NCBI RefSeq assembly: GCF_041261445.1
Contig: NZ_JBGCCU010000017.1
Location: forward strand, 1 to 64,000
Reading direction: 5' to 3'
Length of the DNA stretch: 64,000 bases
Origin: Catenulispora sp. EB89
Lineage (GTDB): Bacteria > Actinomycetota > Actinomycetes > Streptomycetales > Catenulisporaceae
The notes under the pieces were generated by a model. The model searched no databases. It worked only from the letters and a program-made list of their open reading frames with translations, and was not told the origin of the DNA. Positions within the stretch are counted from its first letter, which is position 1. The number at the start of each line of letters is the position of its first letter. Made by a program: the position numbers and the translations under genes. Shown here piece by piece: positions 8,951 to 34,168 of this stretch.

Positions 8951-10870
8951 ATGTGGACGACCATCGTTTCCGGCATCGCCCTCGCCGCCTCAGCGCTGTC
9001 CGGCTCCGTCGCGCACGCCGCAGCCGCCAACGCCGCCAACGCCGCCCCGGACCTCTCGGGCGTCGGTCCGCTCATAGACCAGACCGTCACCGCGCAGCTC
9101 GCGAAGGACAAGATTCCCGGCGCGGCCGTGGTCGTGGTGGCCGGCGGGCAGACCGTGTTCGCGCAAGGCTACGGCGTCGCCGACACCGCCACCAACGCTC
9201 CGGTCGACCCGGTGCGCACCGAGTTCTTCACCGGCTCGGTCGCCAAAGTCTTCACCGCCACCGCCGTCGCGCAGCTGGTCCAGCAGGGCAAGCTCGATCC
9301 GGACGCGGACGTGAACACGTACCTGAAGGACTTCAAGATCCCGGACACGTTCCCGGGCCACCCGGTGACCGTGCAGAACCTGATGACCCACACCGCCGGC
9401 TTCGACGCGGACCCGTTCGGCGTGGCCGTGAGCGACCCGAAGAAGGTGCCGCCGCTCGGGCAGTTCCTCCAGGACTCCAGGCCCGCGCGGGTACGTCCGC
9501 CCGGCACGCTCGCCGCGTACGACAACTACGGCGTCGCCCTGGCCGGCTACCTGGTCCAGACCGTCTCCGGCGAGCCGTTCGCGCAGTACGTCCAGGACCA
9601 CGTGTTCCAGCCGCTGCAGATGGACGCCTCGACCTTCCAGCAGCCGCATCCGGCGGGCTACGACGCGAACCTGGCGAAGGGCTACCGGCCGGAGGGCGGA
9701 GGCTGGGTCGCCGAGGACGGCCAGTACGGCGGCTGGTCCCCGACCGGCGCGGGCACCGCCGCCACCGCGACCGACATGGGCAAGTTCATGATGGCGCAGC
9801 TGGCGAAGGACCCGCGGCTGGGCAACGGGGTCGCGGACCTGATGCAGCAGCGGCACTTCACGATGGACCCGCGGCTGCCCGGCATGGCGTACCTCTTCGA
9901 GGAACGGCCGCGGGACGGCCAGCGGATCCTGTTCAAGGACGGCGACGTCCCCGGGTTCCACAGCGACATGGCGCTGTTGCCGGACAAGGACATCGGCATA
10001 TACGTGGTCTACAACGGTGACGGCACCGACCGGATCGCGCAGTGGGATGGCAAAGCCCTGATCAACCAGATCGTCGACACGGCCTTTCCGCATAGCACGG
10101 GCTTCCCCAATACCACCAGCGCCCCGACCGCCGCCAAGGACCCGAAACTCGGCAGCTACGCCGGGACCTACCGCAGCGACCAGGTGAGCCGGGAAGACGT
10201 CACCCGGGTCGCGGGGCTGGTGTCCTCGGTGACGGTGTCGGCCAACGGCGACGGCACCATCACCACCAACGGCCTGTCGCAGAACCCGAAGATCGGCGAC
10301 CAGCGCTGGATCCCGCTCGGCAGCGGAGAATTCGCCGAGCAGGGCGGCCAGGACCGGCTGGTGTTCGACGGCCACGGCCACCTCGCGACGTCCATCGATC
10401 CCACCGACGCCTACTACAAACTGGACTGGTACAACTCCCCCGCGCTGCACCTGCCGATGCTCTACGGCGGCGCCGGGATCCTCGCGGCCGCTTTCCTCGG
10501 CTTCCCGATCCTCGCGCTGGTACGGCGCGTGCGGCAGCGGCCGACGCACTCCCGGTGGGCCCGGGGCGCGCGGATGCTCGCCTGGGTCGCCGGCGGGCTG
10601 GCGACGTTGTTCGTCGCCGGGTTCGTGACGGTGACCGGGGACAGCGACGCCTTCTACGAACAACTCATCCTCGGGTCCTCGACGCTGACCCTGCTGCTGG
10701 TGGTGAACGCGCTGCTGACCCTGTGCACCGTCGGGCTGATCGCCGGGAGCGCCGCGGCCTGGAAGCTGGGCTGGTGGCGGCCGGCCGGGCGGATCGCGTA
10801 CTCGCTGACCGCGCTCGGCGCCGTGTCCTTCCTGGCCGTGGCGTTCACGTACAACCTGGTCTGGCCGTAG
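8951..10870 (+). CDS. Serine hydrolase, beta-lactamase/class C family, with membrane tail
   Basis: A 639-residue exported protein. A signal peptide (about residues 1-25, ending AHAAAA) is followed by a class C beta-lactamase-like domain: S-x-x-K at 96-99 (TGSVAKVFTA), the YDNYGVALAGYLVQ block with the Tyr motif, HTAG, and DGDVPGFHSDMALLPD near the third motif. After a beta-rich segment the last 150 residues contain four hydrophobic helices. Such proteins are esterases or D-aminopeptidases more often than antibiotic resistance enzymes. The ATG at 8951 starts the signal peptide. Divergent from a two-component pair, which may control it. Confidence 0.88.
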   Translation: MWTTIVSGIALAASALSGSVAHAAAANAANAAPDLSGVGPLIDQTVTAQLAKDKIPGAAVVVVAGGQTVFAQGYGVADTATNAPVDPVRTEFFTGSVAKVFTATAVAQLVQQGKLDPDADVNTYLKDFKIPDTFPGHPVTVQNLMTHTAGFDADPFGVAVSDPKKVPPLGQFLQDSRPARVRPPGTLAAYDNYGVALAGYLVQTVSGEPFAQYVQDHVFQPLQMDASTFQQPHPAGYDANLAKGYRPEGGGWVAEDGQYGGWSPTGAGTAATATDMGKFMMAQLAKDPRLGNGVADLMQQRHFTMDPRLPGMAYLFEERPRDGQRILFKDGDVPGFHSDMALLPDKDIGIYVVYNGDGTDRIAQWDGKALINQIVDTAFPHSTGFPNTTSAPTAAKDPKLGSYAGTYRSDQVSREDVTRVAGLVSSVTVSANGDGTITTNGLSQNPKIGDQRWIPLGSGEFAEQGGQDRLVFDGHGHLATSIDPTDAYYKLDWYNSPALHLPMLYGGAGILAAAFLGFPILALVRRVRQRPTHSRWARGARMLAWVAGGLATLFVAGFVTVTGDSDAFYEQLILGSSTLTLLLVVNALLTLCTVGLIAGSAAAWKLGWWRPAGRIAYSLTALGAVSFLAVAFTYNLVWP

Positions 10871-10900
10871 CCGCGACGATCAGAACCCTGCGATCGCGGA

Positions 10901-11788
10901 TCAGACCTCGAAGAAGGTCAGGTCCAGCTCCGCCAGCCGCTCCGGATCGGCCAGGATGTTGATCTCCTTGATCCGGCCGTCCACCACGGTGAAGCCCATG
11001 ACCGCAGCCGGCTTGCCGTCCACGACCGTCACCCGCCCCGGGGCTCCGTTGACGAGCGCCGGGCGGGCGTGGGCCGCGAAGCGGGCGAACATCAGCGCCT
11101 GCCTGGCCACCGCCTCGGCGCCGCGAAGCAGCTTGAGGCCCGCCGGGAGGCTGCCGTAGTCGGCACGCAGCACGACGTCCGGGTCCAGCACCGCGACCAG
11201 CGCGGCGAAGTCGCCGCCCCGGGAGGCCGCGGAGAAGGCCCGGACGACCTCTTTCTGCCGGCTCAGGTCCGGGTCCGGCACCGCGTCGGCACCCTGGACC
11301 CGGCGCCGGGCGCGGCTGGCCAGCTGGCGCGCGGCGGCCGGGCTCTTGTCGACGATGACCGCGATCTCCTCGAAGGGGACGGCGAACATGTCGTGCAGCA
11401 CGAACGCCAGGCGCTCGGCCGGTTGCAGCGTCTCCAGGACCACCAGCAGGGCCAGGCCGACGGAGTCGGCGAGCAGCGCCTCGTGCTCGGGGTCCAGGCC
11501 GTCCTCCGGCGAGATGATCGGCTCGGGGATGTGGACCGCGTCCAGCGACTCCTCGCGGCTGCGCGCCTTCAGCATGGTGAGGGCGACGCGGGCGACGACC
11601 GTGGTGAGCCAGGCGGTCAGGTTGTCGATGGCGTCGGCGCGGGCGCCCTGCTGGCGGCTCAGGCGCAGCCAGGACTCCTGGACGGCGTCGTCGGCCTCGG
11701 ACAGGGAGCCCAGCATCCGGAAGGCGACGGCCCGCAGATGGCGCCGGTTCTCCTCGAAGCGCTCGGCGAGCCATTCGGTGCTGTCCAC
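10901..11788 (-). CDS. ECF sigma factor with SnoaL-like C-terminal domain (ECF41/SigJ-like)
   Basis: A 295-residue sigma factor. Sigma-2 is at about 5-75 (FRMLGSLSEADDAVQESWLR) and sigma-4 at about 110-165 (ETLQPAERLAFVLHDMFAVP, then FEEIAVIVDKSPAAARQLAS). A SnoaL/NTF2-like extension of about 110 residues follows, ending in NILADPERLAELDL. The extension and the D-G-K-P-A-A-V block are hallmarks of ECF41, where the C-terminal domain tunes activity in place of an anti-sigma factor. ECF41 genes normally neighbour a carboxymuconolactone decarboxylase, oxidoreductase or epimerase; here the nearest co-oriented gene is a Nudix hydrolase 45 bp upstream. Confidence 0.9.
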   Translation of the reverse strand: MDSTEWLAERFEENRRHLRAVAFRMLGSLSEADDAVQESWLRLSRQQGARADAIDNLTAWLTTVVARVALTMLKARSREESLDAVHIPEPIISPEDGLDPEHEALLADSVGLALLVVLETLQPAERLAFVLHDMFAVPFEEIAVIVDKSPAAARQLASRARRRVQGADAVPDPDLSRQKEVVRAFSAASRGGDFAALVAVLDPDVVLRADYGSLPAGLKLLRGAEAVARQALMFARFAAHARPALVNGAPGRVTVVDGKPAAVMGFTVVDGRIKEINILADPERLAELDLTFFEV

Positions 11789-31725: not shown

Positions 31726-31980
31726 TCAGTAGGAGGTGGTGATCGTCACCCCGCTGAAGGCGGTCTGCCCGTAGAGCAGGTAGGAGTTCGTGGCACCGAG
31801 CAGGTCGATGTGGTTCAGCGCGAAGCTGTTCAGCGTGTCGATGACGCTCGGGTCGGCGGTGACGCTCGGGTCGGCGGTGACGGCCGAGACGAACGCCGAG
31901 AACTGGTGCCCCCGGAACAACGGCGTGTAGACGTCGTGGTGAGGATAGATCCAGCTCCGAGTAAGGCAAAGCACGAACAT
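31726..31980 (-). pseudogene. Short frame, probable C-terminal fragment of a lost gene
   Basis: An 84-codon frame from ATG 31980 encodes HHDVYTPLFRGHQFSAFVSA...DTLNSFALNHIDLLGATNSY and ends LLYGQTAFSGVTITTSY. The polar, Tyr/Thr-rich ending resembles the last strand of a secreted protein rather than an intact small protein. No signal peptide or ribosome site is visible, and a perfect 18-bp tandem duplication (31843-31878) lies inside it. A remnant is most likely; a genuine small gene is possible. Confidence 0.35.
31843..31878 (-). repeat. Perfect 18-bp tandem duplication
   Basis: GACGCTCGGGTCGGCGGT is present at 31843-31860 and again at 31861-31878. In the minus-strand frame it encodes ADPSVT twice. 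It looks like replication slippage in decaying sequence. Confidence 0.9.
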
Positions 31981-32045: not shown

Positions 32046-33992
32046 CTAACCGCCCGGCTGGGAATCCATCGGCCGTAGTTGTCCTCCTCCGGCGTCGAGG
32101 ATGCCGAGTCCGCTCCCCGTGGTGGCTGCCGCGCCGGTCAGCACGACGGCCGCGGTGTGCTCGGGCGCCGCGACCGTCTGCCGGACGTTTCCGGCGGCGT
32201 CCGCGACCGCGACCTTCACGACGTGCCGCGTTCCCGCCACCAGCAGGTAGACCTTGCCGTCCGGGGCGCGCCAGCGGGCCTGCGCGACGACGTTCTGGCC
32301 GAGCGCCGAGCAGGTCCGGCCGTTCGCCTCGGTGCCGGTCACGGTCGCCGGGGCCTGCGCGGACGGCGGCAGGAACTCGCTGGCCGCCGAGCCGCTGCCG
32401 GACCACTGGTCGGCGCGCAGGCAGACCCATGACGCAAGGCCCTGAGATTCCGGCAGCGGCTGCTGCGCGAAGACCCAGGTGTCGATCTGCTTCACGTCCT
32501 GACCCTGGAGCGCCGGCAGATCGCAGGCCACGCGCGACTCGGCGCCGTAGGTGTCCGGAGTCGCGACCTCGCGCGGGGTCTGGGTCGGGTCGCCCTTCGG
32601 CGGTGCGGTGTAGAGCAGGTGGGTGCCGGTCACGCCGCCGAGGTCCGTCAGCGCGAACGTCTGGCCGCCGACGGTCGCGGAGGCGTGCAGTTGGAGCGCG
32701 GGCCAGGAGCCGCAGCCGGAGGCCGGCGGCCTGGGCAGCGCGTCGGTGACGCCGTCGGAGATGGTCGCCGGGGACGCGGCGACGGCCGGAGTTCGCAGAT
32801 CCCTGACACTGACGCCGTCGACCCACGGGGCGACGAGCCACCGGTCGCCGGCGTCCGTCGAGCGGAGCACGACGGCGCCGGCGGATGTCAGGTCCGAGTC
32901 GTCGGCGCGGACCACGTCCAGACGGACCGGGTCGTCGGCGGTCGGGGCGTCGGGGAGCGTGTAGCGGGCCAGGCGGGTCGAGTCGAAGAGGAGGACGACG
33001 GTCGCGCCGTCCAGCTGTCCGTTCCACAGCACGTGGACCGGTTGGAGCGGCGGGCCGGCGGCGGCGCCGGGGCCGAGCTTGAGGACATCAGGGTGCTGTG
33101 TCGTCCAGGCGTCGAGGGCCGGGCCGACGGCTGCGGATGACGTCCCGTCACCGCGCGCCGGCCAGACGCCGAAGTCCAGCCGCGGGCTCTGCTGCCACGC
33201 GCTGTCGTCCACCTGGATCGGCGCGTGCGCGGGCCCGGCGCTCGCGGCGTCGGCGGCGGCGTCCGCACCGGTCGACCCCGAGCCGCTGACCCCGATCACC
33301 ACGGCCAGCACCAGCGCCAGTGCCGCAGCGCCGGCCAGCGCCGCACCCCGGGCCTGGCGCCGGCGGCGTGACACGTCGGCGGGGCGGGTGCGCAGCGTGC
33401 AGGGGTCGAACTCGGACGATTCCAGGACGTCGGCCGGGTGTTCGGCGAGCAGCCGCTGCGCCGTCTCCATCGCCGCCGGCACGCCGCGCACGCCGGCACC
33501 GGAGAGCAGCCCGGCCACCTCGTCGGCGCCGAGGTCCTCGAGCGCCAGCAGCACGTAGGCCATCCGCGCCGTGACGCTCAGCCCGCGCAGTGCGGCGTCC
33601 ACTTCCAGCTCCTGCGATCCGCCGCCGAGCGGGAAGAGTCGCAGGCCCCAGACATAGGGCTGGTGCAGCGAGCGCGGCCACCAGGTCCGGCGCAGCACCG
33701 CGTTGACGACCGCCTGGCGCAGCGTGGCGTACGAGTCGCCGTCCGCCGGCCCCGACGAGCGCCGCAGCCAGCGGCCGGGCAGGCCGAGCAAACCAGCCGG
33801 GCCAGCCGGGCCCGCGCCACGGCCGGACAGCGAGCGCTGCGCTATCGCGTGCGCCGCCAGCACCCGGCCGTGCCGGTCGCCTTCCGGCGGCAGCGCCAGG
33901 TACGCGATGCGGACCAGGCGCGAATAGTGCAGCACCAAAGCCGCCTCGAGATCCTCCCGCCCGCCTGCGGGGCGGTCGCGATCGTCGAGCAC
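32046..33992 (-). CDS. Membrane protein with sigma-factor-like N-terminal domain and large extracytoplasmic domain
   Basis: A 648-residue protein from GTG 33992, with AAGGGAGAG upstream. Residues 10-60 (LEAALVLHYSRLVRIAYLALPPEGDRHGRVLAAHAIAQRSL) resemble the sigma-2 region of ECF factors, and 130-185 (LRGLSVTARMAYVLLALEDLGADEVAGLL) resembles sigma-4. A basic stretch RRRRQAR precedes one membrane helix at about 217-236. The remaining 400 residues are extracytoplasmic, beta-rich, with several cysteines. It is too divergent to call a working sigma factor; an anchored signalling protein is one possibility. It stands alone. Confidence 0.75.
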   Translation of the reverse strand: MLDDRDRPAGGREDLEAALVLHYSRLVRIAYLALPPEGDRHGRVLAAHAIAQRSLSGRGAGPAGPAGLLGLPGRWLRRSSGPADGDSYATLRQAVVNAVLRRTWWPRSLHQPYVWGLRLFPLGGGSQELEVDAALRGLSVTARMAYVLLALEDLGADEVAGLLSGAGVRGVPAAMETAQRLLAEHPADVLESSEFDPCTLRTRPADVSRRRRQARGAALAGAAALALVLAVVIGVSGSGSTGADAAADAASAGPAHAPIQVDDSAWQQSPRLDFGVWPARGDGTSSAAVGPALDAWTTQHPDVLKLGPGAAAGPPLQPVHVLWNGQLDGATVVLLFDSTRLARYTLPDAPTADDPVRLDVVRADDSDLTSAGAVVLRSTDAGDRWLVAPWVDGVSVRDLRTPAVAASPATISDGVTDALPRPPASGCGSWPALQLHASATVGGQTFALTDLGGVTGTHLLYTAPPKGDPTQTPREVATPDTYGAESRVACDLPALQGQDVKQIDTWVFAQQPLPESQGLASWVCLRADQWSGSGSAASEFLPPSAQAPATVTGTEANGRTCSALGQNVVAQARWRAPDGKVYLLVAGTRHVVKVAVADAAGNVRQTVAAPEHTAAVVLTGAAATTGSGLGILDAGGGQLRPMDSQPGG

Positions 33993-34168
33993 GAGGGCTC
34001 TCCCTTCTCCGGGTTGAAGAACGAGTCAGGATGCGGATGGTCACCACGGACATCCGCGCCACACACCCGCTACCCCAACCCTGTCAGACCAAGAGCACTT
34101 CTTGTCAGCCGTTTGCCATGAGTGATCGACACCCCCTTTGTCAGAGCCGTGCACGAGACTGTTGACCC

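Follow-up and report, generated by a model that had tools for sequence, protein, structure and literature searches.

The protein encoded at positions 32046–33992 of the window, by which we mean the whole 64,000-nucleotide stretch of Catenulispora sp. EB89 DNA that was analysed, belongs to a conserved family of actinobacterial membrane proteins. Profile alignments indicate that its cytoplasmic N-terminal domain (N-domain) derives from an ECF sigma factor resembling the SigE family, and that the family has lost the SigE-type residues for core RNA polymerase (RNAP) and −35 DNA. We tentatively propose that the protein is a membrane-tethered sigma mimic working by a PhyR-like partner switch, most likely via an anti-sigma factor (probability roughly 0.4).

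Protein layout, membrane helix and outer domain

The cytoplasmic part of the protein comprises residues 1–216, and the features of the gene, all on the minus strand, are as follows.

32046–33992 (minus): whole gene, 648 residues, GTG start; open reading frame call and whole-length same-genus orthologues
34000–34009 (minus): purine-rich, Shine-Dalgarno-like stretch 7 nt 5′ of the GTG; sequence reading
33822–33950 (minus): helices resembling sigma-2.1/2.2, residues 15–57; the invariant region 2.2 Asp of the SigE family is gone; alignment
33687–33731 (minus): helix aligning with sigma region 2.4, residues 88–102; profile alignment
33606–33653 (minus): linker motif VWGLRLFPxGGGxxEL, residues 114–129; conserved, absent from the SigE consensus
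33438–33605 (minus): sigma-4-like region, residues 130–185; first half conserved, recognition helix replaced
33399–33419 (minus): juxtamembrane SxEFDPC, residues 192–198; Cys in 38 of 40 members
33357–33368 (minus): basic patch RRRR, residues 209–212; translation
33288–33344 (minus): single transmembrane helix, residues 217–235; hydropathy
32049–33287 (minus): outer domain, residues 236–648 (413 residues); four invariant Cys, seven invariant Trp

The initial annotation had described a basic patch, a single helix and a Cys-containing outer domain of some 400 residues, and this layout holds. The helix scored 2.64 on the Kyte-Doolittle scale, compared with 1.52 for the next-best segment elsewhere in the protein. 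Its N-terminal side was the more positive one in all 40 aligned members, which predicts an N-in topology and thus a type II membrane protein. In the outer domain, the four Cys and seven Trp were invariant in 48 of 48 sequences, and the Cys are consistent with disulphides outside the cell. A Pfam scan of 39 outer domains returned nothing significant (one member reached E = 0.063) and no carbohydrate-binding family, and a comparison of outer domains with PDB sequences gave zero matches. The structure predicted for the outer domain had a mean pLDDT of 30.2.

Sigma ancestry of the cytoplasmic domain

Single sequences gave marginal signals. For the window protein alone, the best Pfam match was to a sigma family at E = 0.014, and the match to Sigma70_r4_2 scored 13.1–15.5 bits (cut-off, 25.7). 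The N-domain matched the NCBIfam SigE family at E = 0.0054, its 16.6 bits to TIGR02983 staying below the cut-off of 141.55, and a phmmer search of the PDB with the window protein found zero matches. These sub-threshold matches would by themselves leave the ancestry open, and to that extent the sigma similarity is weak, as the initial annotation had put it; at the level of profiles it is strong. We built two alignments, A1 from 40 N-domains and A2 from 39 outer domains; a paralogue from the same genome that is split over two frames (L002) was included in A1 and left out of A2. In a profile-profile comparison (hhalign), 48 N-domains aligned to SigE sigmas, represented by the 30 best of the 48 that exceed the cut-off in the host, with a probability of 96% and a score of 61.0, while the top score among 40 column-shuffled versions was 16.4. 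The outer domain, as a negative control, scored 12.3, and SigE sigmas against other ECFs, as a positive control, scored 182. Against 29 other host ECFs, a set from which one SigE member had been dropped, the N-domain scored 34.3; by profile score it thus stands nearer to SigE-family sigmas than to these other ECFs. A sensitive search of the HHpred type, which had been suggested as a check, does recover sigma similarity. The match spans sigma-2 and the beginning of sigma-4, as had been claimed for the cytoplasmic part, with the exception of the sigma-4 recognition helix, which does not match.

Searches of genomes and of individual members gave the same picture. A1 matched 23 places in the host genome, namely the protein itself, its paralogue and 21 others (E = 0.001 to 7), and 19 of these 21 coincided with places matched by the TIGR02983 SigE-family model. 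The NCBIfam SigE family matched 18 of 40 members at E ≤ 0.1 (best, 7.3e-6) and Pfam Sigma70_r4_2 matched 15 (same limit; best, 2.4e-4), while Pfam Sigma70_r2 was matched by none of the 40 at E up to 0.1. A broader profile of the module (A5, 32 sequences) reached two host SigE sigmas at E = 6.3e-6 and 8.6e-6; its weak matches in other genomes fell at eight places, all eight of them ECF sigmas as judged with the host-sigma models.

Structure prediction, the other check that had been proposed, was of limited help. With a four-sequence input, the model of the N-part had a mean pLDDT of 47.8, although the sigma-4 stretch reached 61–85 (ten-residue means), and both this model and that of the outer domain are too poor for a fold classification. 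Foldseek found no match at E ≤ 0.001 with the weak N-model; each of the 14 top rows was a sigma factor, a sigma/anti-sigma complex or PhyR, which we take as consistent with sigma ancestry and no more. VIA-align gave no match at Z ≥ 8; its rows were mixed, the first sigma row being outranked by one viral envelope chain and by chains like TFIIB, and they were dropped as evidence.

Lost sigma residues and motifs of the family's own

The acidic residues of region 2.2 and the recognition-helix residues of ECF sigmas make the contacts with core RNAP and the −35 element. We compared these positions in a joint alignment of 48 family members and 30 SigE sigmas. The region 2.2 Asp, present in 30 of 30 SigE sigmas, occurred in 0 of 48 members, and the Glu that precedes it in 26 of the 30 was His in 45 of the 48; the Gln three residues after the Asp was kept in 39. 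The first half of sigma-4 was also kept. In the recognition helix, the Lys/Arg of the Val-Lys/Arg pair (30/30 SigE sigmas) was Asp, Gly or Glu in 44 of 48 members, the helix being replaced by a Gly-Val-x-Asp-Pro stretch, and the mean charge of this segment was −1.25 in the family vs. +2.60 in SigE sigmas. Conserved motifs peculiar to the family are VWGLRLFPxxGGxxEL in the linker and EFDPC beside the membrane; just one cytoplasmic Cys, that of the latter motif, is broadly conserved (38/40 members). That the protein works as a sigma factor after release, as its first description implied, is not supported: the core-RNAP and −35 contact motifs are replaced family-wide, and there is no Sigma70_r2 match among the 40 members. 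For annotation, this is a family that resembles a membrane-anchored sigma factor and is probably not one.

Distribution and selection

The gene family was found in 53 of the 60 genomes searched, the host genome included: 10 of 10 in the same genus, 0 of 4 in other genera of its family, 43 of 45 in family f2 and 0 of 1 in family f3. Since the f2 genomes are order-mates and, by inference, Streptomyces, this genus is well suited to a direct test. Within the genus, identity was 81–94% over the whole length in six genomes and 65% in a seventh, with partial matches in two more; the nearest named relatives, in Catenulispora rubra, C. pinistramenti and C. pinisilvae, were 79–91% identical (best segment) with nearly the entire protein covered. 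Identity to order-mates was 36–51% for the N-domain and 33–39% for the outer domain. Class-wide, the outer-domain profile A2 matched 48 of 394 genomes and the N-domain profile A1 matched 38 of 296, both counts including the host. Plasmid records held two relatives, both from Streptomyces and annotated as hypothetical proteins, and the phage records searched held none.

Against six Catenulispora orthologues, dN/dS was 0.11–0.35 for the N-part and 0.21–0.42 for the outer part. Because both halves lie below 1, the degenerate sigma module is one maintained by purifying selection, not one in decay. The paralogue in the host genome (G000:C31, L036 ~9308–11226) is split into two reading frames, with a break near residue 557; the copy in another genome that matches it (G004, L038) is intact, and several other second copies match in pieces only.

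Gene neighbourhoods

The neighbouring genes vary from clade to clade. Among the neighbours selected for Pfam scanning in the Catenulispora, Streptomyces-like, f19 and f15 loci, there was no sigma or anti-sigma gene that could encode a partner. At L159 (9831–11693) and L161 (10288–11973), a protein-kinase gene adjoins the family gene on the opposite strand (the Pfam assignment was made for L159 only), and L160 has no such neighbour among its conserved open reading frames. The window itself holds remnants of an M9 collagenase gene at 31729–31938 on the minus strand (78% identity over 54 residues and 47% over 53 to the intact gene at L033:11113–13557); the LysR and collagenase genes that lie 3′ of the sigma-like gene in L033 are absent from the window, as if deleted. 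Elsewhere in the window, 11294–11773 (minus strand) is another ECF sigma place, with 46.5 bits to TIGR02983 and a match to PF04542.

Reuse of the module in other lineages

Nine of the ten A2-positive f19 loci fetched also carried the N-domain. The tenth (G209/L162), a 45-residue outer-domain match with the N-domain absent, was excluded from every count, and L156, in which the N and C parts lie in different frames, was retained in the count of outer-domain Cys but not in the N-domain set, which uses 8 of the 9 loci. In f15, to which the class-wide A1 search led, the module is found in other company: each of the five genomes examined had a single helix-free version plus one or two versions carrying a membrane helix, and the helix-bearing versions end in a short, unrelated tail that does not resemble the 400-residue outer domain. 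The places in these genomes are listed below.

L165 5648–6649 and 11205–12044; L166; L167; L168; L169–L173; L163; L164: f15 module loci

The f15 alignment contains 12 of 13 places (L171, at a contig end, was excluded). Its N-domains matched the window family in hhalign at 99.6% (E = 2e-23), and most members carry the Gly-Val-x-Asp-Pro replacement of the recognition helix; scans of 10 members against Pfam and NCBIfam gave nothing that exceeded the cut-offs. The anchored versions at L165 lie near genes for methylmalonyl-CoA mutase, acyl-CoA dehydrogenase and PhaC. Since soluble and anchored versions coexist, the latter with an unrelated tail, the sigma-derived module is a separate unit to which different outer parts are joined.

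Proposed working and alternatives

A module that is under selection, that occurs anchored or soluble and that has lost its promoter-reading parts is most economically read as one that signals by binding a protein. We infer this mode of action, and likewise who the partner is, what signal is sensed and whether proteolysis plays a part. In the working that we propose, the outer domain would sense the state of the envelope or cell wall, and this state would alter how the sigma-shaped module is presented to a cytoplasmic partner, most likely an anti-sigma factor belonging to one of the numerous ECF sigmas that these genomes encode. The mimic would then compete for the partner of that sigma factor, as PhyR competes for NepR (PMC8103513). 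Candidate networks are plentiful: the 11.9 Mb host genome contains 127 places matching sigma region 2, and 48 of its ECF sigmas exceed the SigE-family cut-off. The main weakness of this proposal is that the scanned neighbourhoods contain no linked partner gene, whereas PhyR systems are usually co-encoded (PMC8103513). The poor N-model (mean pLDDT 47.8) also counts against it, and a kept sigma surface is accordingly conjectural. A non-sigma partner would account for the data about as well.

The foremost alternative, which we regard as possible, is that the sigma fold now serves a membrane protein as an all-purpose cytoplasmic adaptor or dock, perhaps one for cell-wall or division proteins, and is unconnected with transcription. 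The loss of the contact motifs, the family's own linker and juxtamembrane motifs and the want of sigma or anti-sigma genes among the scanned neighbours would all fit such a dock, but the helical cores of regions 2 and 4 are still recognisably sigma, and soluble versions alongside tethered ones are easier to reconcile with regulation than with docking alone. A wider form of the mimicry proposal, which we consider rather unlikely as it stands, is that a whole actinobacterial superfamily of decommissioned ECF modules serves as membrane-borne (in some genomes also soluble) anti-anti-sigma factors, the envelope signal being relayed by showing or hiding the decoy at the membrane, with exchangeable outer sensors.

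Two further readings were considered. In one, the module binds core RNAP, or another sigma's target on RNAP, without DNA, as a tethered inhibitor or an RNAP anchor. The parts kept best are sigma-2.1 and, in sigma-4, the first half, which in sigma factors also bear surfaces that do not face DNA; yet at the conserved acidic positions of region 2.2 the family has His or small or basic residues, and we think this reading improbable. In the other, the protein would be a functional one-component ECF sigma, tethered to the membrane until regulated intramembrane proteolysis sets it free, as proposed for ECF48/52/53. Its sigma descent is real and its domain order is that of SCO4117/ECF52, but the loss of the region 2.2 and recognition-helix residues throughout the family disfavours a released true sigma, and the absence of Sigma70_r2 matches in the 40 members, the lack of a zinc-finger match in Pfam and the single broadly conserved cytoplasmic Cys point the same way; we judge it unlikely. 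Finally, a functionless, decaying relic, as the split second copy in the host genome and the piecemeal second copies elsewhere might suggest, is scarcely credible given dN/dS values well below 1, presence in 53 of 60 genomes and the four Cys and seven Trp that do not vary among 48 outer domains.

Comparison with known systems

The initial annotation considered a membrane-anchored sigma-like protein to be an unusual design. The anchor alone is not unusual, as ECF48, ECF52 and ECF53 are described membrane-anchored ECFs, for which release by regulated intramembrane proteolysis has been proposed as a model (PMC8999054, PMC5826349); what is unusual is the degenerate sigma domain. Like the window family, ECF52/53/48 are actinobacterial and place an N-terminal ECF-type domain before a transmembrane segment, and their regulatory extensions reach up to ~400 residues, as compared with the ~400 residues of the outer part here (PMC8999054 and PMC5826349). 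They combine an ECF sigma domain with a zinc finger, whereas the window family has lost the sigma motifs, and a Pfam scan of the full window protein found no zinc-finger family. SCO4117 of Streptomyces coelicolor (ECF52) shares the order of sigma domain, helix and outer domain and adds a proline-rich stretch and a carbohydrate-binding module, in contrast to the window family, which has no carbohydrate-binding match. A search of the open-access literature, by title and start of abstract, found no description of a degenerate membrane-anchored ECF family, and subscription surveys of ECFs may mention one.

Among the host ECF sigmas compared, the SigE family (TIGR02983) is nearest to the N-domain, but the window family is without its region 2.2 and recognition-helix residues. 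In this it resembles PhyR, whose sigma-like domain combines an ECF-like fold with promoter and RNAP regions that have degenerated and whose gene usually lies beside those for NepR and EcfG (PMC8103513). Several searches with family sequences gave weak PhyR matches. PhyR, an alphaproteobacterial anti-anti-sigma factor, is nevertheless a response regulator with a receiver domain, of which Pfam found no match in the full window protein, whereas the window family has a membrane helix and an outer domain and belongs to another phylum. The window family thus does not share all of the defining features of ECF52/53 or of PhyR. If the sigma-mimic proposal is true, the family would be a second case of sigma-mimicry signalling, in addition to the alphaproteobacterial PhyR system, and an anti-anti-sigma role, if borne out, would make it a new signalling design.
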